Positions 12,047 through 33,340 of a stretch of DNA of 33,902 bases are shown here, piece by piece. The notes under the pieces were generated by a model. The model worked only from the letters and a program-made list of their open reading frames with translations, was not told where the DNA came from and did no database searches. Origin of the DNA: a virus; the IMG/VR virus record IMGVR_UViG_3300031250_000005, positions 1 through 33,902 of that record; one strand, written 5' to 3'. The position numbers and the translations under genes were made by a program. Numbering within the stretch: position 1 is the stretch's first letter; every line of letters begins with the position of its first letter.

Positions 12047-12120
12047 GTGTCCTTAGCCCAATTGGCAGAGGCGACGCGCTTAGGACGCGTTCAGTGAGAG
12101 TTCGAGTCTCTCAGGACATA
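12047..12120 (+). tRNA. tRNA-Leu (anticodon UAG), short variable loop
   Basis: The cloverleaf is clear. Acceptor GTGTCCT (12047-12053) pairs with AGGACAT (12113-12119, first pair G-U). D-arm GCC/GGC carries AATTGGCAGA. The anticodon stem is ACGCG/CGCGT with loop CTTAGGA. The T-arm is GAGAG-TTCGAGT-CTCTC, and the discriminator is A at 12120. The anticodon UAG reads CUA/CUN leucine codons. G37 and A73 fit tRNA-Leu, but the variable region has only 5 bases, whereas bacterial tRNA-Leu normally has a long variable arm. CCA is not encoded. Confidence 0.85.
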
Positions 12121-12130
12121 CACTGCTCCA

Positions 12131-12257: not shown

Positions 12258-12330
12258 CGGAGGTTAGCTCAGTTGGTAGAGTATCTAGCTTATACCTAGA
12301 TGGTCGATGGTTCGAGCCCATCACCTCCGA
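12258..12330 (+). tRNA. tRNA-Ile (anticodon UAU)
   Basis: It is a canonical 73-base cloverleaf: acceptor CGGAGGT/ACCTCCG, then TA, D-arm GCTC-AGTTGGTA-GAGT, anticodon stem TCTAG/CTAGA with loop CTTATAC, variable TGGTC, T-arm GATGG-TTCGAGC-CCATC, discriminator A. The anticodon UAU reads AUA. Most bacteria read AUA with a CAU tRNA that needs lysidine modification; a UAU tRNA avoids that. ATA is the main Ile codon of many genes in this window. CCA is not encoded. Confidence 0.93.
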
Positions 12331-12374
12331 CGATCGATATGTACATATTACAAGTAACGTGACATAATAATTAT

Positions 12375-12974: not shown

Positions 12975-13508
12975 ATGGTAAAAGGATCAAAACACACAAA
13001 GGAGGCTAAGGCCAAGGTGGCTAAGGCACAGATAGGCAACAAGAAGGCAGTCGGAAATACCGGCGGTCGTCCTTCCGGCTACGACGAGTCATACCCGGAG
13101 AGGGTGTTCGCTTACCTCGAGAAGTGCGTCGACGAGTACAAGAGCCTGCTCAGGTCTGAGAACGCCGAGAGCGGATCGATAACCTATGCCAACCAGCTCG
13201 CGGTGTCTATCCCACAGTACGCGGACGTGTGCATAATGCTCGACTGTTCTTACGAGACAATGAACGCCTGGGCGTCGCTCCATCCAGAGTTTGCCAGAGC
13301 TTTGAGGGCTGTGAAGATGGAGCAGGAGAAGCGCCTTGTCAACAAAGGTCTGTCCGGCGAGTACGTATCGCCTATCGTGAAAATGCTCCTTTCTGCCAAC
13401 CACGGATACAAGGAGAAGACGGAGCTCGACCTGACGGGCGCGGTCACAGTTACAAACATAAGCACGCTTACCGATGAACAACTCGCTAGAATTGCAAACG
13501 GCGGCTAG
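12975..13508 (+). CDS. terS: Terminase small subunit
   Basis: This 177-residue protein lies directly before the large terminase and overlaps it by 35 bases, the usual arrangement. It has a basic N-terminus (MVKGSKHTKEAKAKVAKAQI) and the GNTGGRPSGY motif common in small terminases. A helix-turn-helix region follows (SIPQYADVCIMLDCSYETMN, about 75-95), then a helical oligomerisation region with KMEQEKRLVNKGLSGEYVSP and IVKMLLSANHGYKEK. It recognises phage DNA and regulates the packaging motor. The C-terminal beta segment (AVTVTNISTLTDEQLARI) resembles the large-subunit interaction tail. Confidence 0.88.
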   Translation: MVKGSKHTKEAKAKVAKAQIGNKKAVGNTGGRPSGYDESYPERVFAYLEKCVDEYKSLLRSENAESGSITYANQLAVSIPQYADVCIMLDCSYETMNAWASLHPEFARALRAVKMEQEKRLVNKGLSGEYVSPIVKMLLSANHGYKEKTELDLTGAVTVTNISTLTDEQLARIANGG

Positions 13509-14949
13509 GGTAGAGCAGGCAAGGCGAGAGGAAGCCCGGCGCCACTTCATAAAATTCGAGCAGTATCGGTCGCCGTGGTTCAAGACGAACTGGCACCACG
13601 AGCTCGTGGCTGGAGCCCTGGAGCGGGTAGAGAACGGGTCGCTCAAGCGCCTCATAATCCTCGAGCCGCCGCGTCACGGCAAGAGCAACCAGGTCTCCGT
13701 AGACTTCCCGCCGTGGGTGCTCGGCCGCAACAGGGACAAGAACATAATCCTCGCCTCGTACTCAGACGACCTCGCTCTCGACTTCGGGCGCGAGGCGCGC
13801 AACATAGTTGACTCTGAGGAGTACAAGCGCGTGTTCACCACCAGGCTCTCAGAGGACAGCAAGGCAAAGGGGACGTGGGCGACTAACGGGCGCGGCAAGT
13901 ACAACGCGGTGGGCGTCGGCGGGTCGGTCACCGGTAAGGGTGCAGACGTTCTCATAATCGACGACCCGGTGAAGAACAGGGTGGACGCAGACTCGGAGGT
14001 GGTGCAGGAGAAGGTGTACAGCTGGTACAAGTCAACCGCCCGCACCCGACTGTCGCCGAACGGCGCGATCATAATCTGCATTACCAGGTGGAACGACAAC
14101 GACCTCGTAGGCAAGATACTCGCGGACGACGTTCTTAACCAGTGGGAGATCATATCCCTCCCGGCCATAGCGGAGGTCGAGGACGACCCCGACAGGCCGT
14201 ACGACAGGCGCAGGATAGGCGAGGCACTGTGGCCAGAGCAGTTCGACACGGACAACCTCACGCTGACAAAGGCCGACGTGGGGCTCGTGGAGTGGTCCGC
14301 GCTCTTCCAGCAGAACCCGATCAACGGCGAGACGCAGGAGTTCAGGGAGTCGATGTTCATGGACGCGACGTGGGACGAGGTCCAGGCCAAGCATACGGCC
14401 CTGTTCGTAACCGTCGACACAGCCAGCCGCAAGAAGAGGACGAGCGACTTCACGGGCGTCGTGCGCAACAACGTCGAGGAGGACGGCACGTATAACATAC
14501 GCGCTAGCCGCGAGCGCATGGACAGCACGGAGCTGGTCAAGTTCATATTCGACGTGTGGGTAAACGAGAAGCCGGAGGCGATAGGAATAGAGGAGACCGC
14601 CTTCATGGACGCCGTGTACCCGTTCTTCGTCCAGGAGAGCAAGCGGAGGAACATATACCCGAACGTCGTCGGCCTCAAGCACCACGGAACCGGCAAGGAG
14701 ACGCGCATACGGGGTCTTCTGCCTAGGTACAACGCGAAGGCCGTCAACCACGTAGTCGGACAGTGCGCAGACCTCGAGCAGGAGGAGCTCAGGTTCCCGA
14801 AGGGCAAGCACGACGACGTCGTCGACGCGCTGGCATACCAGGACCAGATAGCCTTCCCGCCGCTTCCGCTGCAGAGCTACGTCGAGGAGGCTTACAACGA
14901 CATGCAGATCGACCCGAAGACCGGGTATTACAAGACTAACACGAAATAA
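13474..14949 (+). CDS. terL: Terminase large subunit
   Basis: This 491-residue packaging ATPase/nuclease has a Walker A variant EPPRHGKSN (64-72) and Walker B VLIIDDPV (about 163-170). IIICITRW (about 198-205) is the coupling segment. The RNase H-like nuclease has its first acidic residue in LFVTVDTAS (about 310-318), the second in AIGIEETAF (about 369-377) and the third in KHDDVVDALAY (about 448-458). The enzyme translocates and cuts concatemeric DNA into procapsids through the portal. The ATG lies inside the small-subunit gene, indicating coupled translation. The classical GKS P-loop followed by a TRWxxxD motif places it with environmental podovirus-like terminases. Confidence 0.96.
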   Translation: MNNSLELQTAARVEQARREEARRHFIKFEQYRSPWFKTNWHHELVAGALERVENGSLKRLIILEPPRHGKSNQVSVDFPPWVLGRNRDKNIILASYSDDLALDFGREARNIVDSEEYKRVFTTRLSEDSKAKGTWATNGRGKYNAVGVGGSVTGKGADVLIIDDPVKNRVDADSEVVQEKVYSWYKSTARTRLSPNGAIIICITRWNDNDLVGKILADDVLNQWEIISLPAIAEVEDDPDRPYDRRRIGEALWPEQFDTDNLTLTKADVGLVEWSALFQQNPINGETQEFRESMFMDATWDEVQAKHTALFVTVDTASRKKRTSDFTGVVRNNVEEDGTYNIRASRERMDSTELVKFIFDVWVNEKPEAIGIEETAFMDAVYPFFVQESKRRNIYPNVVGLKHHGTGKETRIRGLLPRYNAKAVNHVVGQCADLEQEELRFPKGKHDDVVDALAYQDQIAFPPLPLQSYVEEAYNDMQIDPKTGYYKTNTK

Positions 14950-19062: not shown

Positions 19063-20034
19063 ATGTCAACAATCTTCGCAGCAATAGACGTGGGCCAGAA
19101 GGTGGTGGCGATGGAGCTCATCGACATCCTCAAGCAGAACCTGATAATGTACAAGACATCGAAGATCCAGCCCGTCAAGAAGGGGTCAAACTCGAAGACC
19201 GTGATCTTCCGCGGGTTCAACAAGCTCTCGCTCGCTCTCACCCCACTCATCGAGGGAGTGACGCCGTCGGGCTCGAACCTCACGATGAACAGCATTACCG
19301 TGGTGCTCTCCCAGTACGGAGACTTCACGCGTATCACTGACGTCGCGGAGTTCCTCTACGACCGCTCCCTCATCAAGGACGCCAGCGACGTGCTCGGCAT
19401 CCAGGCGACGGAGACGATCGACACGACCATCATGAACGTCGTCGCGGCAGGTACCAACGTCGTCTACGGAGACGGCACGGTATCCACTCGCGCGACTGTC
19501 ACGCAGGCCATGGTGCTCACGACGAAGCTCATCACGCGATACGTTCGCTGGCTCGAGCGCAACAACGTCAAGAAGTTCCCAGCAATGCCTATCATAGGCA
19601 AGGCATACGCTCTCGTCACTCACCCTGACGTCATCGCAGACCTCCGCCAGGACACAGGCTTCGTCGCTGCGGTCAACTACTCGAGCCCTAACCCGGCCAA
19701 CGAGTTCCGCGGCGACCTCTTCACTGGTGAGGTAGGTTACTGGATGGGCGCACGCGTCATATCCACGACAATCGCCCCTGTGTACGTAGGTGCCGGATCG
19801 GCAGGCGCGGACATCTACGCAGTCCTCGTCTACGGCGAGGGCGCATACGGCGTCTCAGAGTTCGCAGGCGGTCTCAGCACTTACATCCACACGGGCGGAG
19901 TGCAGGACACTAACAACCCTCTCGAGCAGTACTCGACGGTCGGCTGGAAGTGGGAAGGCGCAACGGCCATCCTCGACAACAACCGTCTCGTGCGCGGTGA
20001 GGTCGGTGCTACACTCGAAGGCGGAAACGCCTAG
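19063..20034 (+). CDS. Major capsid protein, N4-gp56 family (HK97 fold)
   Basis: This 323-residue protein matches the N4-gp56 family of coat proteins in order. A helical start (GQKVVAMELIDILKQNLIMY) is followed by KTVIFRGFNKLSLALTPLIE, then GVTPSGSNLTMNSITVVLSQ, then YGDFTRITDVAEF and LGIQATETIDTTIMNVVAAG with GTNVVYGDG (about 140). In the C-terminal half are YALVTHPDVIADLRQD, FTGEVGYWMGARVI and the end WEGATAILDNNRLVR. It should form the icosahedral shell. Its Ile codons are 18 ATC, 4 ATA and 1 ATT by my count, unlike most neighbouring genes that use mainly ATA, consistent with codon selection for high expression. Confidence 0.93.
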   Translation: MSTIFAAIDVGQKVVAMELIDILKQNLIMYKTSKIQPVKKGSNSKTVIFRGFNKLSLALTPLIEGVTPSGSNLTMNSITVVLSQYGDFTRITDVAEFLYDRSLIKDASDVLGIQATETIDTTIMNVVAAGTNVVYGDGTVSTRATVTQAMVLTTKLITRYVRWLERNNVKKFPAMPIIGKAYALVTHPDVIADLRQDTGFVAAVNYSSPNPANEFRGDLFTGEVGYWMGARVISTTIAPVYVGAGSAGADIYAVLVYGEGAYGVSEFAGGLSTYIHTGGVQDTNNPLEQYSTVGWKWEGATAILDNNRLVRGEVGATLEGGNA

Positions 20035-23305: not shown

Positions 23306-24061
23306 ATGCAACTCAACGACACGACCAACCTCATAGGGATAAAGCAGGACCTGTACTTCACGGGCAAGTTCAACTCCTCTACGTTCGACCAGCTAGACGT
23401 CGACCGTATCATAAACAAGTACTACGGCCAGATCCAGGAGATCATACGCGGCATAAACGAGAACTTCTACATGATCGTCGCTGTGACCGACCTCGTCATA
23501 GGAGACGGCTCTTACACCTTCCCAGACGGCGTAGGCGCTGGGGCTGCGCCGGCTTACGAGAAGGTAAAGTCAATATGGGCAGCGTTTCTGCCTCAGAACT
23601 TCCTTGCGCCGCTAGCCACTGAGTACAAGCGCGTCGACTTCATAGACCCGAACCAGATCAGCCAGCCTGCGTATACATTCACGAGCCCGAAGGCGCAGCC
23701 GTTCGGGACGTACTTCACACTGCTTCCGATACCTGTGACTGCGGACGGCCCGTACCCTGTCAAGGGAGGCCTCAAGATATACTACATACAGCAGCTCGAC
23801 TTCCTCGTCAACGACACCGACATGCCGAAGATCTTCCGCAGCTTCCACGACGCGATAACGTGGGGGGCGCTCATAGACATAGCGCCTCGCCTGAGGAACG
23901 ACAAGCTCCTAAAGCAGGCGCAGGACATGTTCAAGAAGCGCTGCGATGACATAGCTAACTACGCCTCGAACCGCATACTCGACGTGTCTGACAGCATTAT
24001 AGAGGGCCAGGACGCTCAGGGCGGATGGGAGTACCCGTGGGGCCAGAACTCGATGTCATAA
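23306..24061 (+). CDS. Head-tail adaptor / tail tubular protein A-like
   Basis: This 251-residue protein starts MQLNDTTNLIGIKQDLYFTG. Its N-terminal helices (DQLDVDRIINKYYGQIQEII, about 32-51), the beta/loop region with KSIWAAFLPQNF and YKRVDFID, PFGTYFTLLPIPVTADGP-like strands, and a C-terminal helical pair (FHDAITWGALIDIAPRLRND, LKQAQDMFKKRCDDIANY) follow the plan of podovirus gp11/P22 gp4-like adaptor or tail tubular proteins that ring the portal. The next gene encodes the likely tail tube/nozzle protein, which fits this order. Family assignment is moderately certain. Confidence 0.72.
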   Translation: MQLNDTTNLIGIKQDLYFTGKFNSSTFDQLDVDRIINKYYGQIQEIIRGINENFYMIVAVTDLVIGDGSYTFPDGVGAGAAPAYEKVKSIWAAFLPQNFLAPLATEYKRVDFIDPNQISQPAYTFTSPKAQPFGTYFTLLPIPVTADGPYPVKGGLKIYYIQQLDFLVNDTDMPKIFRSFHDAITWGALIDIAPRLRNDKLLKQAQDMFKKRCDDIANYASNRILDVSDSIIEGQDAQGGWEYPWGQNSMS

Positions 24062-24066
24062 AAGCA

Positions 24067-25593
24067 ATGAGAGCATACTCGAAAACAGTGATAGAGAACT
24101 TTCTGCGGATGTCTCCGCAGGTCCCGTCATACGGGGCGAAGAACCAGCACTTCCTCATAGCGGGGGCTGACCCCTTGTACTACCTACTGGCGCAGGGAAC
24201 GCAGGAGCAGCAGGCCGGTCCGCTAGCCGCGGCGCCTGACCTCACGGAGATACCCCCAGTCGGGGTCACAAACGTCGAGGGCAACATAGTCGACATCATA
24301 GCGAGCACGGAGGGCACGTTCTCCGCCTACTGCATAACTGACACGACGCGCGTATACGGGCTCAACAAGGCAGGCTACCACGACCTCGGCTACCCGAGCG
24401 GGTCTTCGGTTAACAACGTCGGAGGAAGGCTGGCGTGCTCTGGCGGCTTCCTGCTCGCGACGTACTCAAGCTCGAACAAGGTATGGCTGCTCGCGCTTCC
24501 GGGCCCAGGATCGTGGTCCTCTGTTTCGAGCGGGACGCTTTCGACGAACGTCGGTCCCCACCTTCTCGAGCCGTTTGCGGAGTACGTCTGCGTGTCTGAC
24601 AACACAGTGTCAGGAAACACAGCGAACGAGATACGTCTCATAACGCTCGCGTCGAGCACCATACTCACGACACCTGCGCTCAACCTCGGAACCGGCTGGG
24701 GTATCATGCAGATGAAGAACTACACCAACAAGTACCTTGCAGCAGCGATAGGCCAGGTCGCCTCGGGGGGAATAGTCCAGGGACACCAGCAGAACTACCT
24801 CGTTCTGTGGGACGCGGCCTTCAACACCTTCAACCAGTCCATACCGATACCGGGCAAGTTCCTCGACATGAAGGTCATAGACTCCGTGCTATACGTCGCA
24901 GTGCAGCTCAACGACAGCAGGACTGCAGTGTACTACCTCAGCAACATAACCCTGAAGAAGCTTTTCACGACGCAGGTGTCTAACATATCGGCCGCGACGT
25001 ACGCGCCGGTCAACTGCGCGCTATTTTCATACAACAATTTCGTAGGCGTCAAGCTCGTGGACACAAACGCAGCGAACGGCTCGCTCATATGCCCTCTCCT
25101 GACGTCCGGATCCTCAGAGTCGGGGCCGCTTGAGTACATATTCGGCTACGGAAGGACAATAGACCAGCTCTGCGTAGGCTACGACGGAACGCTTTTTACC
25201 ACGATGTACGTCCCCTCGGGCAACTCAAGGCTGTTCTACAAGCCTGACGTACCGGGAACATACCTGAGCATATACTATATATCACAGTGGATCCCCGTGA
25301 GCAACCTGGCAGGCCTCGACATATATTACGATGAGCCGCCCGTGCTTACGGGTGACAAGATAAGCGTTACAATATACGGAAAGGGAGAGGACATCTCAGC
25401 AAACGGAGGAAACTCTACGACTCCGCTAAATGACATAACGTCTACGAGCGCAATGACGAAGAAGAGGACACAGCTCGACGTCAAGGGCTTCACCGGAGAC
25501 TTCCTGAGGGTCGTGCTTACGACGACGGTGACCGGCGGATCGACATGGAAGCCTATAATAAGGGGAATCACGCCGCTCTCGTCTGACGAATAA
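24067..25593 (+). CDS. Beta-propeller-like tail (nozzle) protein
   Basis: This 508-residue protein is read from the ATG at 24067; an upstream in-frame ATG at 24025 lies inside the previous gene. It starts MRAYSKTVIENFLRMSPQVP. It consists of many short beta strands with repeating blade-like units, e.g. RVYGLNKAGYHDLGYPSG, KVWLLALPGPGSWSSVSSGT, LYVAVQLNDSRTAVYYLSN and LFTTMYVPSGNSRLFYKP. The C-terminal domain includes VTIYGKGEDIS and FLRVVLTTTVTGGS. Propeller-type nozzle or stabilising proteins (T7 gp12/P22 gp10-like) follow the adaptor gene in short-tailed phages, so a nozzle or tail-hub role is inferred. Confidence 0.68.
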   Translation: MRAYSKTVIENFLRMSPQVPSYGAKNQHFLIAGADPLYYLLAQGTQEQQAGPLAAAPDLTEIPPVGVTNVEGNIVDIIASTEGTFSAYCITDTTRVYGLNKAGYHDLGYPSGSSVNNVGGRLACSGGFLLATYSSSNKVWLLALPGPGSWSSVSSGTLSTNVGPHLLEPFAEYVCVSDNTVSGNTANEIRLITLASSTILTTPALNLGTGWGIMQMKNYTNKYLAAAIGQVASGGIVQGHQQNYLVLWDAAFNTFNQSIPIPGKFLDMKVIDSVLYVAVQLNDSRTAVYYLSNITLKKLFTTQVSNISAATYAPVNCALFSYNNFVGVKLVDTNAANGSLICPLLTSGSSESGPLEYIFGYGRTIDQLCVGYDGTLFTTMYVPSGNSRLFYKPDVPGTYLSIYYISQWIPVSNLAGLDIYYDEPPVLTGDKISVTIYGKGEDISANGGNSTTPLNDITSTSAMTKKRTQLDVKGFTGDFLRVVLTTTVTGGSTWKPIIRGITPLSSDE

Positions 25594-25597
25594 AAAT

Positions 25598-27652
25598 ATG
25601 GCACTAACAACAAACCAGATAAGCGATCACGTACAAACAGCAGTAGGGCGCCCAGCGACCGACTATGAGGCCAGCGTCTTTGCCAATGCACCGATACAGG
25701 AGCTGGCGAACCTCAAGTCGTACTACGGAGGCCTCAACAAGGACGGATCGATAGTCGACTACCTCAAGTACACCGGCCAGGACTCCTCTGAGCAGGCCCG
25801 TACGGCTCTCGGGACAAAGTACGGCATAACGGGTATAGGAACGGGGCCAGGGAACAACGCTCTCCTCGCGGCTCTCAAGTCAGGAAAGGCGCCTACAGCG
25901 CCGGGCACGGGACCTGCTGTGCCAGGTTCGCTCACGGACGCTACGAAGCCTCCTGTCACCACGAGCCCCACGACTCCTACTGATCCGAACGCAGGAAAGC
26001 CTACGACAGGGGATCAGCCTGCGTCAACGACAGACACTACGAAGACAACAACAGACTCGACGACCCCACCTACCCCTGACGGAACTGTTGACACGGATCC
26101 CGACGTATGGGCTGCTAACAATAACGTCAAGCAGGCACTTTCGACGTACCAGTCGAACCAGACAGCTGTGTCGAGCATAGACCAGCAGGTCGCCTCGCTT
26201 CGCGAGACCATGGCGACCGCGCTGACAGACAAGGAGGCAGAGATAACAAAGAACGGTGGACTCGTAAACCGCGCACAGATAGCCGCCCAGGTCTCTGCGG
26301 AGAACCAGGGAGTCATGAGCCAGATAGACAACCTGCTCGCGCAGCGCGCCCCTCTCGCGGCCTCGCAGTCCCAGGCGTCCACAGCGCTTACGCAGGCTCG
26401 CTCAGACCTCAAGAACTCGCAGGACAACTTCTACAAGTCTACGTCTGCGAATCAGGCGCAGGAGAAGATCGACACCCAGCAGTCTCAGTTCTCTCAGAAG
26501 CTCGCCCAGACAGGATGGAAGAGCGTGCCGGTGACCTCGTACGACGAGTACGGAGACGTCGTAGGAAAGAGCAACGTCTGGACACAGAACCCAGGCGCAA
26601 CCACCGGCTTCAACGACGCGGGACAGCCTATGACGCTTACGACAGACAAGTCAGGAAATGTCACAGCAAAGCCAACTACCGAGTCCTCCGGCGGAACAGG
26701 ACTCGCCGCGATGTCTAAGACAGCGGCGACGTCTGCGCCTAAGACTACCGCTATGTTCTCTGACCCTACGATAAACATAACGTCGCCAGGCTACTCCACC
26801 GCGAACGTGACCTTCAACGGCAAGAACACGCAGCTGACGCAGTCGTACATCGACCAGATAGCCCGCGTCGCGATACTGAACGGCGGATCGATACCAGCAG
26901 GCTCAGTGCGCGGGACCAAGGGGCTTCCGATAGTGCAGACGGACGCGATAAAGGCTCGCATGGGCCAGCTCGACCCCGGAGGCAACCTGCAGCTCAACAA
27001 GGCGCAGGCGACTGCGTGGGCGAGCGCGATAGACAAGCAGATAGCATATGCGACCAACCTGAACAGGTCTCTCCAGTCAGCCGACGCCGACTTCGAGCAG
27101 GTCCTGGGTGCCTTATCGAAGTCAGGCCTGAACTCGTCCATACCGCTTGGCAACATAATATCCAACTTCACGAAGTACAACCTCGGAAGCGCAGACGTTG
27201 CCTCGTTCCAGGCCTCGCTCAACGAGATCAGCCGTCTCTACTCGCAGGTGTTCTCGAACGGCGGCCAGACCACGGACGCTACGAATGCAACGGCGAAGGA
27301 CATAATAAACGGAAACATGAGCATGGACCAGCTCAAGGGGGTGCTCAAGCAGCTCCAGACGCTCGGAGGAATAGACGTGCAGAAGGCGAACGACACAATA
27401 GCACAGGCCTCGGACCAGTACTCGGGAATAGGCGGCGGAATAAAGGAGGACACATCGAAGGGAAGCATGGACGACAAGACATTCGTTCAGACGTCGCTGG
27501 ACAAGGCAGGGCTCAAGTACGACGACCTCTTGAAGGAGATGAAGGGCGGCGGAACCGGCAAGGAGAACATACCGGTTCTCGACAACAAGACGGGTCAGCC
27601 GGCGTTCGCCTCGCAGGAGGAGATAGACGCAGGAGACTATACCCCACTATAA
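25598..27652 (+). CDS. Large internal virion / ejection protein candidate
   Basis: This 684-residue protein starts MALTTNQISDHVQTAVGRPA. An N-terminal helical domain (about 1-85) is followed by a Thr/Pro/Asp-rich linker (about 95-165, e.g. TSPTTPTDPNAGKPTTGDQP). A long Gln/Ala/Ser-rich coiled-coil region follows (about 170-305, SQASTALTQARSDLKNSQDN), then beta and helical parts. IARVAILNGGSIPAGSVRGT and helices such as AWASAIDKQIAYATNLNRSL lie further on. Large helical low-complexity proteins after the nozzle gene are typical ejection proteins. No lytic transglycosylase or peptidase motif is visible. Confidence 0.6.
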   Translation: MALTTNQISDHVQTAVGRPATDYEASVFANAPIQELANLKSYYGGLNKDGSIVDYLKYTGQDSSEQARTALGTKYGITGIGTGPGNNALLAALKSGKAPTAPGTGPAVPGSLTDATKPPVTTSPTTPTDPNAGKPTTGDQPASTTDTTKTTTDSTTPPTPDGTVDTDPDVWAANNNVKQALSTYQSNQTAVSSIDQQVASLRETMATALTDKEAEITKNGGLVNRAQIAAQVSAENQGVMSQIDNLLAQRAPLAASQSQASTALTQARSDLKNSQDNFYKSTSANQAQEKIDTQQSQFSQKLAQTGWKSVPVTSYDEYGDVVGKSNVWTQNPGATTGFNDAGQPMTLTTDKSGNVTAKPTTESSGGTGLAAMSKTAATSAPKTTAMFSDPTINITSPGYSTANVTFNGKNTQLTQSYIDQIARVAILNGGSIPAGSVRGTKGLPIVQTDAIKARMGQLDPGGNLQLNKAQATAWASAIDKQIAYATNLNRSLQSADADFEQVLGALSKSGLNSSIPLGNIISNFTKYNLGSADVASFQASLNEISRLYSQVFSNGGQTTDATNATAKDIINGNMSMDQLKGVLKQLQTLGGIDVQKANDTIAQASDQYSGIGGGIKEDTSKGSMDDKTFVQTSLDKAGLKYDDLLKEMKGGGTGKENIPVLDNKTGQPAFASQEEIDAGDYTPL

Positions 27653-27656
27653 ACAT

Positions 27657-29543
27657 ATGGCAATACCATTCACACCAAAATCATCTACGGGCGGCGCGAT
27701 ACCGTTCGACCCGAAGGCACCAAAAGTCAGTGCGCCATCAATTGCCCAAGCAGGGAGCAGTTTTAGCTATCAGGGTATAGCAGGCGTGACTAAGGGGAAT
27801 CCATATTTTGAAAATGTTGACAAAAATCTTTCAAGCACATTCAAATCTGGCGCTGCAGATGTCACAAAAGACGTAGCAGACATACAAAAAAATGCTATGC
27901 CGAAGGGACAGGAACCTTCAACTGGCGCAGGAAAAGCAATAAACTACACGCTTGCAGGTCTAGGCGCTGCTGGACATATTGTTGGTGATGTAGCAAAAAC
28001 AGCAGGAGGAATAATAGGAAGCTTTATAGAGCCAGTACTTCCAAATGCTGTAAAAAGTAAGATAGGAAATGTTTCTGATCACATAGACAAAAAGATAGAT
28101 CAGATACCAGGTATGACACCTGAAATACATAAGGGAATGGCCGACGTGTTTAACACTTTGACCCTTGAAGGAGGAGACAAGGCAGAGGCTCCTGTAAAAA
28201 ATGCAATCACAGACGCAGCCCCTATAGTGAAGCAAGCAGCACAACAGACTGCTGATACCATCAAAGACGTTCCTGGTGCAATATCCGAGTCTGCAGCCGA
28301 GCACTACAAGGCTCAGTCCGTAAAGGACTGGACAAAGCCTGCTGAGGCAAACAAAGCTGGATTTAAGAAGGCTGCCTCAATTTTCAACAATGCGTCGTCT
28401 AAGGGACATAACATAGCAGATACACTCGTCGGAAACGGCGTAAAGCTCTCGGATCACGTCGCTGATGGTAAGTATGCAACTGCTGACACTGCAGAGCTTC
28501 TTCGCGAGGACGCTGGAAAGCTCAGCACTGACCTCATACTTCCTTCACTGAAGGACGCAGACTACTCTACCCCGCGTACTCCCATCGACGACATAATGAA
28601 GGTTGCGAAGGACTCCATAACATCTGACAAGTCAATGACTGCTGGAGACAAAGTAAGCGCTTTTAAGGCTCTGACGAAGGAAACCTCTGCGCTTAAGAGC
28701 GCGCACCCAGACGGAATGTCGCTCGAGGACATGCACAACAACAAGATAACATACAGCAAGAATGCAGGTCACAACCCCATAGGGACGATGGACGACAACA
28801 TAAAGGCAAGCACTAACAATGCAATATCAGGAGCTATGAAGGACACACTACTAAAGAAGGCGCCGAAGGAGCTGTCACCGCTGATAGACAACGTAAACAA
28901 GGAGCTGTCGAAGAGGTATCAGGCAGCTGACTACCTCAAGGAGCTGAACTCAAAGACGGTTCCAAAAGGAATAATGTCAAAGATAGCGGCTACGGCCGCA
29001 AAAGTGACAGGCGCCGTTGCTGGAGAGGCCATGGGCGGCGGAATACTTGGAGGTGTCGGAGGATATCACCTCGGTGGCATGGTAGAGAAGTTCATAGAGG
29101 ACATGAGTAACCCTGTAAAGGAGAAGTTCCTCAATAACCTTTCAAGGTCAAACCCTGAGGCATTTCAGAAGATGCAGCAGTACCTCGGAAATCAGGAGAC
29201 CCAGAGGCTCATGACAAAGCAGCTTCCCGAAGGATCCCCGCTTGGCTCAGACAAGAATCCTATAGTCCCACCTGCGCCGACGACATATGAGAAGCCGGCA
29301 GAGAGCATAAACAGGGAGAAGCAGCCAGACCAGCTCATGCTGGAAGCACCAAAATCAAACGCACAGGGCAGACCCATAGTACTCACAGAAAAAGCAAAAA
29401 ATCTTTCACAAGAAAGTGAGGCGACTATAAAAAGATACTACAGGTACAACCCAAAGGACGGAAAATACTATCTCAAAGGAGCACTAAATGGTGGTAATAA
29501 GCCAGAGATAGGCGGAAGCATATCAAACGCAGCTAAAAAATAG
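27657..29543 (+). CDS. Second large internal virion protein candidate
   Basis: This 628-residue protein starts MAIPFTPKSSTGGAIPFDPK with a repeated (A/G)IPF-x-P-K motif. A Lys/Ala-rich helical body follows, with an Ala/Gly hydrophobic helix at about 440-470 (AATAAKVTGAVAGEAMGGGI, LGGVGGYHLGG) that could insert into a membrane. The C-terminus (YYRYNPKDGKYYLKGALNGG) is basic. A membrane-active segment in a long helical protein suits a DNA-ejection channel component. The first ~800 bases and the last ~200 bases of the gene are AT-richer (about 35-48% G+C in lines counted) than the preceding gene (~67% in one line), suggesting mosaic origin. Specific function inferred. Confidence 0.6.
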   Translation: MAIPFTPKSSTGGAIPFDPKAPKVSAPSIAQAGSSFSYQGIAGVTKGNPYFENVDKNLSSTFKSGAADVTKDVADIQKNAMPKGQEPSTGAGKAINYTLAGLGAAGHIVGDVAKTAGGIIGSFIEPVLPNAVKSKIGNVSDHIDKKIDQIPGMTPEIHKGMADVFNTLTLEGGDKAEAPVKNAITDAAPIVKQAAQQTADTIKDVPGAISESAAEHYKAQSVKDWTKPAEANKAGFKKAASIFNNASSKGHNIADTLVGNGVKLSDHVADGKYATADTAELLREDAGKLSTDLILPSLKDADYSTPRTPIDDIMKVAKDSITSDKSMTAGDKVSAFKALTKETSALKSAHPDGMSLEDMHNNKITYSKNAGHNPIGTMDDNIKASTNNAISGAMKDTLLKKAPKELSPLIDNVNKELSKRYQAADYLKELNSKTVPKGIMSKIAATAAKVTGAVAGEAMGGGILGGVGGYHLGGMVEKFIEDMSNPVKEKFLNNLSRSNPEAFQKMQQYLGNQETQRLMTKQLPEGSPLGSDKNPIVPPAPTTYEKPAESINREKQPDQLMLEAPKSNAQGRPIVLTEKAKNLSQESEATIKRYYRYNPKDGKYYLKGALNGGNKPEIGGSISNAAKK

Positions 29544-29555
29544 CATAATAAATAT

Positions 29556-31064
29556 ATGAAAAAGGGAAAAGTAACAATAATAACAGACGAATGGCTCGCT
29601 CCTAGCCTCGCGCTAGCGTTGAAAAACGACGGCGCGTCTGTTTCCCTTGCCGTAAAGCGCACTACCGCGATACTGAAGGGGACAATACAGCGCATACCGT
29701 ACGCCGACCGAGTAGAGTCTGCGAAGAATGCGAACCTGGTCATATATGAGGACAAGAGCAACAAGGGTGAGTCGTCCGACCTGCGCAAGGAGGGATATTG
29801 CGTCATAGGCGGAGACAAGCTTACTGACAAGCTCGAGCTCGACCGCACCTGGGCAAACGAGATAGCCAGGCTATCCGGCATGCTCGCTCCTGAGATGATA
29901 CAGGTTTCATCTTTTCAGGAGATACGCGACATAGTCGCGACGAGGGGAGGAAGGTGGGTGCTCAAGCAGCAGGGAAAGCTCGACGAGATAAAGGGCCTTA
30001 ACTTCGTCGCGAAGATGGACGACTCTGAGGACCTCATAGACTCGCTCGACAAGCTAGAGAAGATATGGATCGAGGGAGTAAAGCCGGACTTCGTCATGCA
30101 GGAGTACAAGGAGGGCCACGAAATGGCGTGCGGAGCCTTCTGGAACGGCCACGAGTTCATGAAGGACAGGGACGGTGACGAGGTATGTTATGAGAACTGG
30201 GAGCACAAGGCTCTCTTCCCGGGAAACCTCGGCGAGTCAACCGGCGAGCAGTACACCGTCATACGCACTGTCAAGGCGAAGGACTCGAAGCTTTTCTCCG
30301 AGACTCTCGACAGGTGCCGAGAGCTGCTCAAGCGCATAGACTACCGCGGCTACTTCGACGTAAACACGATAGTAACGAAAGAGGGGGCATACTTCCTTGA
30401 GTTCACGCCCCGCATGGGGGTTCCGTTCACGTCCGGTCTGCTCGAGATACACAAGTCGTCGTGGTACAGGTTCCTGTACGCCGTAGCAGACGGGTCGCAG
30501 GACACCACGTTCGAGTATAACACCGGCTTCTGCATAGTGTCATGGCTGTACACCAAGCCGTTTCCTTTCGTGACGTCCCACAAGCTTACCCAGGCGTTCG
30601 AGGACACTGAGACGCCTACTAACATGGGCGACATAGCCGAGCTCATGAGCTTCCGCATGGCGAACTCAGACGGCGTGCCGATTAACTTCAAGAAGGACTT
30701 CACCAAGGAGGACTGGCCGCACATACACCCAGACGGGCTCAGGTACGACGGTGACAGGCTCGTCATAGCGAACCCTGACGGATACATACTGACCGCGACG
30801 TCGATGGGCGAGACGCCTGAGGAGGCAGGTGAGAGCCTGACGAAGATACTGAAGAAGATAGTGGTCCCAAAGTCCTTCTGGCGCGCAGACTTCGACCGCA
30901 GCAACTACCACAAGTCGAAGGACGACCTCGAGGAGTGGGAGTACCTCATGTCAAGCGAGAAGCGCGAGGCGAAGAAACAGGCCGAGGATATAGCAAAGAC
31001 GAACAAGGAGAACGAGGCGGCGCGCGCAGACGTCCGTGCCAAGATCCGTGAGATGATACTATAA
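29556..31064 (+). CDS. PurD-like ATP-grasp ligase in the virion gene cluster
   Basis: This 502-residue protein matches phosphoribosylamine-glycine ligase (PurD) over most of its length. The entry segment DLRKEGYCVIGGDKLTDKLE (75-94) resembles GxxxFGPxxxAAxLE. The ATP-grasp core has RWVLKQQG (133-140), VMQEYKEGHEMACGAFWNG (180-198) and YFDVNTIVTKEGAYFLEFTPRMG (266-288). The C-terminal PurD domain ends DGYILTATSMGETPEEAGES (408-427) and VVPKSFWRADF. The metal-binding E282 and R286 are kept, but the family's N in LEFNxRxGDPE is T284 and DPE is VPF. The N-terminal domain is divergent, and about 50 extra charged C-terminal residues (455-502) exceed PurD length. ATP-grasp enzymes ligate a carboxylate to an amine; the substrate here is unknown. 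It directly precedes, and shares one base with, the fibre gene. Confidence 0.88.
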   Translation: MKKGKVTIITDEWLAPSLALALKNDGASVSLAVKRTTAILKGTIQRIPYADRVESAKNANLVIYEDKSNKGESSDLRKEGYCVIGGDKLTDKLELDRTWANEIARLSGMLAPEMIQVSSFQEIRDIVATRGGRWVLKQQGKLDEIKGLNFVAKMDDSEDLIDSLDKLEKIWIEGVKPDFVMQEYKEGHEMACGAFWNGHEFMKDRDGDEVCYENWEHKALFPGNLGESTGEQYTVIRTVKAKDSKLFSETLDRCRELLKRIDYRGYFDVNTIVTKEGAYFLEFTPRMGVPFTSGLLEIHKSSWYRFLYAVADGSQDTTFEYNTGFCIVSWLYTKPFPFVTSHKLTQAFEDTETPTNMGDIAELMSFRMANSDGVPINFKKDFTKEDWPHIHPDGLRYDGDRLVIANPDGYILTATSMGETPEEAGESLTKILKKIVVPKSFWRADFDRSNYHKSKDDLEEWEYLMSSEKREAKKQAEDIAKTNKENEAARADVRAKIREMIL

Positions 31065-33340
31065 TGAAAACACAGAACAAGAAAAAGCTTATAGAGCTCT
31101 ACGTCAAGTCTTCGAAGCCTGAGGAGCTATTCTCCGACCTATTCGAGAAGCTGGACAAGCTCGACACTGACATCGGTGAGCTAGCTTCGAACGTCGCGGA
31201 CGTACGCGACCCTGAGGTCATACTGCCGTCGGTCATGAAGGCGATCGAAGGAATACGCTCTGAGATATCTCCAAAGGCAGACTCCTCCTCGCTGAAGTCT
31301 GCGATAGAAGGCATACGCAGCGCTATACCCTCTCCATACACGGCAGAGCAGGTCAGGGACATGCTCGCTGGCCTAACAGGAAAGAACAAGCTGTCCATAT
31401 TCGACCTCAAGGACATAGAGTGGCTGAAGGACGGGCTAAAGGGCATGGGCAACGGTTCGAACGTCGTATCACTGTCTGGAGGACCTGCTACATCAATATC
31501 AGGGTTAATACAGCAGGGGACGAACATAACAATAACAGGACTCGGAACAACCGCAAGCCCGTACGTCATAAGCTCGACTGGCGGATCAGGAGGTGTGACG
31601 TCGTTCAACACACGCACCGGCGCAGTGACATCCCAGTCAGGCGACTATAACACATCTCAGGTCGCGGAGGTGACGAACCTGTACTTTACGAACGCTCGCG
31701 CCATAGCCTCGACACTCACAGGGTACGTGTCTGGAGCCGGTATAATTTCCTCTGCTGACAGCGTACTTTCTGCGATCCAGAAGCTCAACGGAAACATAGG
31801 AGCGCTCGTAACTGGTGTTTCTTCAGTAATCAACTCAGACGGAACGCTCACTATATCACCTACGACAGGCGCAGTGGTAGCCTCAATAGCTCTCGGTCAC
31901 GCTAACACATGGTCTGCTCTCCAGACCTTCGGGAACAATATATCCATAGGAGGAGCTACGGTCAACGTGACCTCGCTTACCACGAACAACGTGCTTCAGT
32001 ACAACGGCACGAACTGGGTAAACGTGACCCTCGCCTCATCTGCGGCCGGCGCGAACCCTACCGCGACCATAGGACTCACGGTAGTAAACGGATCAGCTGC
32101 TACTTTCCTGCGATCAGATGGCGCGCCTGCGCTCTCCCAGGCCATAGCGCCTACTTGGACCGGTGTGCACATATTCTCACCTGCGGCAAGGACGTCTGGA
32201 GTATCGCCGTATTTCACAATAAACGCACCGGCTGACACCGGAATAACAACTGCGACTGAGGCTATAGGAATAAAGCACACCGGTGCGACTCGTACGTGGG
32301 TCGACGGGACTGTCGCTGTGCAGCGCGAGTACTTCTTCGGAGCACCTACGTACAACAAGACGACGACGTCCGCGACATTCACGCAGGCAGGCACGCTTGT
32401 CATAGGCGGAGCACCTGTCGCGGGAACAGGTGTGACAATAACGAACGCATTCGCGCTGTGGGTGCAGGGAGGAGTGAGCCACTTCGGAGCTCAGCTCGGA
32501 GGAAGCCCTATGTCGGCGCAGGCAGGAAACGGAATAGAGGTGGCCGACATAAACACAAATGGAGAGGGTGTGACATACCAGGTCACTAACACGAGCAACG
32601 GAACATTCGCTTATGGCGGACTGACCATATTCAACGACACAGCGACGAATCCAGCTGTAGCATATGCCGGCATATACCTCAACTCAAGCGGCTACACTAA
32701 CACGACCTTCGGAACGGCAGTCGCGATAGCCAACCAGCTCGCAATACAGAATGCTACCGGCGGACCACTAACAATCGGAACAACAGGAACAGGGTCAACA
32801 AACGGAGTAGTAAACATACTGGTCGCAGGCTTTGCAATAGCTAACGAGGTGGCGCGCTTCACGGCCGCAGGAATGACAATAGGACTCACTGGAACACTGA
32901 CCGGCTCGATAGTCTTCGCGGGTGCGACTTCGACTAACATAACTCTCCAGGGACAGGCAATAGGTTCATCGACTACACTCACTCTCCCCGCAGGTATAAA
33001 CACAACACTCGGCTACCTCGGGATACCACAGAACTCACAGAGTGCTAACTATACGACTGTACTTTCTGACTCCGGTGTTGAGATATACCACCCTGTCGGA
33101 GACGCCAATGCGCGTACTTTCACGATAGCAGCGAACGCTTCTGTCGCATACCCAATAGGGACTTCAATACTATTTACCAATATGTCACCAAACAACTTGA
33201 CAATAGCGATAAACACTGACACATTGTACCTTGAGGGAGCAGGAACCACTGGATCAAGAACACTCGCACAGTACGGCTCCTGCATAGCCACAAAGAAGAC
33301 GTCGACGACGTGGCTGATAGGTGGGACCAACCTAACATAG
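31064..33340 (+). CDS. Tail fibre / receptor-binding protein
   Basis: This 758-residue protein starts at an ATG overlapping the previous stop (TAATG). The N-terminal ~130 residues are helical, with two copies of AIEGIRS (about 60-66 and 82-88), likely the virion-attachment and trimerisation part. A FNTRTGAVTSQSGDY motif (about 184-198) followed by VTNLYFTNARA (about 205-215) is found in many phage fibres. A very long Thr/Asn/Gly/Ala-rich beta region follows, and the end resembles appendage C-termini (SQSANYTTVLSDSGVEIYHP, FTIAANASVAYPIGTSILFT). It should bind the host surface. Ile is encoded mainly by ATA. No intramolecular chaperone motif is evident. Confidence 0.85.
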   Translation: MKTQNKKKLIELYVKSSKPEELFSDLFEKLDKLDTDIGELASNVADVRDPEVILPSVMKAIEGIRSEISPKADSSSLKSAIEGIRSAIPSPYTAEQVRDMLAGLTGKNKLSIFDLKDIEWLKDGLKGMGNGSNVVSLSGGPATSISGLIQQGTNITITGLGTTASPYVISSTGGSGGVTSFNTRTGAVTSQSGDYNTSQVAEVTNLYFTNARAIASTLTGYVSGAGIISSADSVLSAIQKLNGNIGALVTGVSSVINSDGTLTISPTTGAVVASIALGHANTWSALQTFGNNISIGGATVNVTSLTTNNVLQYNGTNWVNVTLASSAAGANPTATIGLTVVNGSAATFLRSDGAPALSQAIAPTWTGVHIFSPAARTSGVSPYFTINAPADTGITTATEAIGIKHTGATRTWVDGTVAVQREYFFGAPTYNKTTTSATFTQAGTLVIGGAPVAGTGVTITNAFALWVQGGVSHFGAQLGGSPMSAQAGNGIEVADINTNGEGVTYQVTNTSNGTFAYGGLTIFNDTATNPAVAYAGIYLNSSGYTNTTFGTAVAIANQLAIQNATGGPLTIGTTGTGSTNGVVNILVAGFAIANEVARFTAAGMTIGLTGTLTGSIVFAGATSTNITLQGQAIGSSTTLTLPAGINTTLGYLGIPQNSQSANYTTVLSDSGVEIYHPVGDANARTFTIAANASVAYPIGTSILFTNMSPNNLTIAINTDTLYLEGAGTTGSRTLAQYGSCIATKKTSTTWLIGGTNLT

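Follow-up and report, generated by a model that had tools for sequence, protein, structure and literature searches.

Described ATP-grasp ligases and a PurD-like phage gene

Among the ATP-grasp ligases with a described function, PurD (profile TIGR00877; structures 1GSO from Escherichia coli and 2YW2 from Aquifex aeolicus) is the closest to the gene presented here, and PurK, PurT and PylC share its fold. PylC, an enzyme of pyrrolysine biosynthesis, couples an amino acid to the side chain of lysine. ATP-grasp ligases with unproven substrates are also encoded by phages, as in the ATP-grasp/amidoligase/GATase clusters of LUZ24-like phages and the R2K-type ligases of jumbo phages (PMC7824862); the ATP-grasp gene of UFV-P2 lies in an early module together with amidoligase and GATase genes (PMC3890496). 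Here we describe a PurD-like ligase gene of the virus record IMGVR_UViG_3300031250_000005 from IMG/VR, which was analysed over its whole length of 33,902 nucleotides (the window):

29556..31064, + strand: PurD-fold ATP-grasp ligase, 502 amino acids, ATG start (open reading frame list, profiles and predicted fold)

The ligase belongs to a distinct, almost virus-only family that is usually encoded beside genes for injected proteins, and thus probably joins other molecules than PurD does, in a different reaction. We tentatively prefer, with somewhat less than even confidence, the reading that it is a probably active carboxylate-amine ATP-grasp enzyme of a phage-specific, PurD-related clade with a changed acceptor side, whose likeliest target would be a protein made late in infection. 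A literature search found no description of such a phage clade of PurD-like ligases.

The likeness to PurD is real but distant. An earlier note on this DNA had called the gene a nearly complete PurD homologue with its C-terminal domain retained, and this proved correct: a profile of 34 relatives aligned end to end with E. coli PurD (hhalign, probability 99.7, E 8e-27), the alignment runs through D445, and the C-terminal domain is present in the AlphaFold model (pLDDT 90 for the model). By itself the window ligase gave a marginal BLASTP match to E. coli PurD (E 0.022). The top PDB matches of the complete model (pLDDT 90.3, pTM 0.88) were all PurD (Z 31.7, root mean square deviation 3.4 Å over 399 residues), and the similarity covers the whole chain, including the N- and C-terminal domains. 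PurK and PurT came second in the structural ranking, for which Foldseek was also run (Z 22-24), but gave no convincing sequence-profile match; PylC shares the fold (Z 22.6) but scored below PurD and gave no sequence evidence of closeness. No close structural match to the model was found in BFVD (best TM-score by query 0.41). The predicted PurD-like structure with its nucleotide-binding core, together with the invariant residues K137, E189, E282 and R286, places the window ligase in the ATP-grasp superfamily.

The profile scores are low. The curated NCBIfam cut-off for TIGR00877 is 288 bits; the window ligase reached 58.4 bits (E 5.5e-16; 56.9 bits in a second run), and eight other members remained below it as well, with 64-122 bits. 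GARS_A scored 21.9 bits, under its cut-off of 27. The Pfam scan (E <= 0.1) returned only GARS_A, GARS_C and ATP-grasp_3 for the window ligase; in contrast to the LUZ24-like clusters, GATase_6 (PF13522) was found in 0 of 34 records of the family, many of which may be fragments. PHROGs gave no match for the window ligase, and eight relatives had none in their ligase portion either; two relatives with inteins matched PHROGs families that contain inteins.

A phage clade apart from PurD

The first relatives were four IMG/VR sequences with 61-65% identity to the window ligase, and the GenBank metagenomic phage MW202796.1 carries an unannotated copy. Family alignments grew to 49 loci and then to at least 570 viral loci in IMG/VR, whereas 84,980 prokaryote genomes yielded four loci, three in Paraburkholderia and one in an Elusimicrobia metagenome-assembled genome. 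The two scans used different patterns and the counts are therefore not strictly comparable, yet the contrast is large. Apart from the four prokaryote-genome loci, all members come from records of uncultured viruses, many of them fragmentary, and the locus counts are not independent events. In one Paraburkholderia genome (L057 in our numbering of loci), the copy has phage genes (endolysin, gp14-like) to one side of it and, to the other, a gene for a host-like ABC transporter.

The family hidden Markov model separates phage members (mostly 360-690 bits, fragments included) from PurD (89-136 bits). In the phylogenetic tree, which contained only ten PurD sequences and no outgroup, the split between PurD and the phage members had a support of 1.0 and a branch length of 2.05 substitutions per site. 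The phage members thus form a separate clade and do not group with cellular PurD; the close kinship to an ordinary host PurD that the earlier note had named as grounds for giving up its proposal was not seen. The clade is under strong purifying selection, with a median ratio of nonsynonymous to synonymous substitutions (dN/dS) of 0.075 and a maximum of 0.164 in 422 close pairs, which are not independent of each other.

Weak matches in records labelled as phage (Listeria, Salmonella, Acinetobacter, gut contigs) were set aside: the five examined score like PurD (116-135 bits, versus at least 360), and in two annotated records purD lies beside purH. An apparent N-terminal fusion of 440 amino acids in L022 was also discarded as an out-of-frame open stretch, judged by its composition.

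A working PurD enzyme that raises purine synthesis, that is, an ordinary auxiliary metabolic gene, would fit the full-length PurD fold with its C-terminal domain, and virome papers do mention purD among viral metabolic genes (PMC11097641; PMC12043954). We regard this explanation as very unlikely. The score of 57-58 bits is far from the PurD cut-off, the PurD motifs GDPE, TGGMG and GGREHA are missing in 168 of 168 members, and the gene is located in a late virion module. In addition, a search of 34 records yielded neither PurM nor PurN, and all four host genomes that harbour a member retain a true purD, which scores 471-573 bits, compared with 83-95 bits for the family member. Since purine partners are missing from these records and the host genomes have their own purD, a role in purine synthesis is unlikely.

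Active site

The earlier note had read a change of the metal-site Asn to Thr (E282-F-T284) and of the DPE motif to VPF, and the window ligase indeed carries E282-F-T284 followed by R286-M-G-V-P290-F. The Glu and Asn in question correspond to the PurD metal ligands at positions 286 and 288 of the E. coli enzyme, and their fate is the same throughout the family: in 128 of 128 aligned members the Glu is kept and the Asn is replaced by Thr. This replacement is therefore a fixed family trait and not the decay of one gene. PurK and PurT likewise presumably lack Asn at their second metal position. Like PurD, the ligase has the ATP-site Lys, Glu and Arg and a TG loop. Invariant in the 128-member alignment are E94, R97, K137, G187, E189, E216, K218, G226, E231, T234, E282, T284, R286, G288 and P290. 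D268 is kept in 125 of the 128, where PurD has Tyr or Phe; as a compensating metal ligand it was not established, since hhalign aligns the first metal Glu of PurK with N270 of the window ligase.

The motifs divide the two groups. G.[GA][GA]REHA, TGGMG and R.GDPE are present in 10 of 10 PurDs and in 0 of 168 phage members; the TGGMGA loop is TGE(Q/M)GT and R.GDPE is R.G(W/V/Y)P in the phage family. Conversely, E[FWNA]T.R.G.P was found in 161 and TGE[QM].T in 158 of the 168 members.

Five ligases (L049, L050, L052, L209 and L212) contain inteins, all at one shared site between N and T/C of GPN|TGE. Inteins typically sit at conserved active sites. The coordinates of four of these genes are:

L049, 7630-9927: intein-bearing ligase
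L050, 5540-7825: intein-bearing ligase
L052, 4864-7134: intein-bearing ligase
L212, 15670-17943: intein-bearing ligase

The Thr in place of the metal-site Asn in all aligned members could also be expected of a dead enzyme that is retained as a structural or regulatory protein. This is highly improbable, since none of the 128 sequences departs from the ATP-site residues or from E282 and R286, the family has active-site residues of its own that are invariant (E231, T234, T284) or nearly so (D268), and the inteins are located at the active-site loop.

Taking together the separate clade, the lost motifs, the virion context and the absence of purine partners, the proposal in the earlier note that the gene performs a different ligation is favoured. 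The part that stands, helped also by the constraint on the clade, is that this is not a plain purine gene. In the mechanism that we prefer, a ligase lineage descended from PurD or sharing ancestry with it would activate a carboxylate as acyl phosphate with ATP, as PurD does, and would then join it to an amine other than phosphoribosylamine.

Genomic neighbourhoods

In the window the ligase gene begins 12 bases after the end of the upstream gene. The surrounding features are:

31062..31066, + strand: TAATG overlap, in which base 31064 belongs both to the ligase stop codon (TAA) and to the ATG of the next gene
27657..29543, + strand: upstream protein, 628 amino acids, with a repeated N-terminal peptide (AIPFTPKS / AIPFDPKA) and a weak phrog_3241 match
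31064..33340, + strand: downstream protein, 758 amino acids, fibre-like by sequence
25598..27652, + strand: conserved late gene c19, 684 amino acids, with a weak phrog_2307 match (L-alanyl-D-glutamate peptidase)
24025..25593, + strand: conserved late gene c18, 522 amino acids, used as bait for relatives independently of the ligase
23306..24061, + strand: late gene c17, conserved in the window lineage
19063..20034, + strand: major capsid protein (context; profile match)
13474..14949, + strand: large terminase (context; profile match)

The base shared with the next gene was thus seen as described before, and so were the virion-gene surroundings, with capsid and terminase genes recognised upstream. 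The nucleotide genes of the window (dTMP kinase, dCMP deaminase) are encoded on the opposite strand at 2.1-3.9 kb, more than 20 kb from the ligase. The labels of the direct neighbours as internal protein and tail fibre agree with their placement and with the relatives, but neither protein gave a convincing family match of its own, and both labels are putative. The 628-amino-acid protein holds the place of the large ejection-type protein of the relatives. The 758-amino-acid protein gave no family match in Pfam and PHROGs profile searches; a KKKL..LYVK stretch at its N-terminus recurs, judged by eye, in the gene directly 3´ of the ligase in relatives. The window also encodes a tRNA-Leu (UAG, 12047-12121) and a tRNA-Ile (UAU, 12258-12331), and ATA codons seem frequent in it.

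The location is similar across the family. After dereplication of the loci at 80% identity, recognised virion-module families were present in 59 of 73 loci. A common order is a head-closure/stabilization protein, a GNAT protein, two mid-size proteins, a protein of often 500-1500 amino acids and then the ligase. In 52 of 69 loci, the gene directly upstream runs in the same direction, encodes at least 250 amino acids and ends at the ligase start; 26 of these 52 have an in-frame four-base overlap (ATGA/GTGA) between the two genes. SLT or lysozyme domains were detected in four of six upstream proteins, which had been selected either as examples of lineages or because of their lysozyme-like N-termini. 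Such domains would fit ejection proteins, by analogy with T7 gp16, which is an ejection protein. Elsewhere the ligase follows a portal-type protein (L009) or a virion structural protein (L058). Among relatives of the window lineage retrieved with c18, the ligase was present in all seven records that were long enough, the window not counted. In MW202796.1 (L006), a gene annotated as 10-kDa chaperonin (GroES type, 1612-1947) lies between the portal and capsid genes.

Possible targets and partners

The gene position suggests a virion protein as target. First candidates would be the products of the two flanking genes, the ejection-type and the tail-fibre protein. That this widespread PurD-derived clade carries out a new ATP-dependent conjugation on an ejection or tail protein of the virion, a covalent modification of the particle not described before, is possible but doubtful.

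Several observations weigh against an active ligase that modifies a late protein. Its activity is deduced from conservation, and the position is circumstantial because late operons also contain lysis and accessory genes. In one podovirus-like lineage, gathered with a gp14-like gene, the ligase was present in 46 loci and absent, with its neighbours kept and the record continuing, in 13 of the 59 testable relatives. In 11 of these 13, a gene of about 130 amino acids that elsewhere comes just after the ligase directly follows the large protein. This clean absence shows that the ligase is an optional cassette in this lineage and hence dispensable. L015 and the L065 group sit among non-virion genes, and in L132 the ligase has as neighbours NAD-salvage-like genes and genes with N-termini like the T4 capsid-targeting tag (both judged by eye); the virion position is thus the rule but not universal. 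Finally, no ligase-specific partner gene was found among the neighbourhoods examined, and two candidates are equally frequent with and without the ligase. One is the GNAT gene, rejected as partner because it is nearby in 36 of 46 loci with the ligase and in 10 of 13 without. The other is the set of short N-terminal repeats in the upstream proteins, which exceed shuffled sequences in about half of these proteins; since they also occur in phages without the ligase, they were rejected as its substrate and are perhaps a packaging or docking tag.

Some features of these loci were noted in passing. The repeats of one upstream protein are unrelated to those of other phages (for example NAFADLPP, GPWEKY and WPGTP). 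The conserved protein of about 130 amino acids closes the late operon in L151-L229 (for example L154, 8975-9376) and has no notable Pfam or PHROG match. In L065, L066, L069, L072, L091 and L132, a conserved gene starting like NIFYLHNDPVVCAEMHNDKH lies just 3´ of the ligase in a non-podovirus context. The gene cluster around the ligase in L132 (4236-7436 and 13869-15253) has N-termini of the form MK[ST]F[KT]EF.

The optional presence and the occasional non-virion position would fit an accessory function late in infection, such as small-molecule synthesis or a modification of the host envelope, which might for instance prevent superinfection or aid release. For the amidoligase/GATase pairs of other phages, a modification of the cell wall against superinfection has been suggested (PMC10580990). 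We consider this rather unlikely for the present family: GATase_6 is missing from the 34 records, no biosynthetic gene is conserved beside the ligase, and the ligase is mostly packed closely against virion genes.

The virion might also bring the enzyme along, or the enzyme might be produced to act early, so that a host protein or metabolite is modified once the phage has entered. The ligase usually follows an ejection-type protein, in L132 it lies among the genes with tag-like N-termini, and host proteins are the predicted substrates of the R2K-type ATP-grasps of jumbo phages (PMC7824862). However, the ligase has no recognised targeting tag, and we judge this explanation unlikely.

Significance for phage biology

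At least 570 examples of the ligase are present in one virus collection, yet it is missing from PHROGs and looks like a purine gene to automatic annotation. Some of the purD auxiliary metabolic genes reported from viromes may be members of this phage clade, and if the ligase is not PurD, these genes would need rereading. If virion or surface components are modified by it, the ligase would represent a phage chemistry of a new kind, which could be tested in the Paraburkholderia strains that carry the gene.
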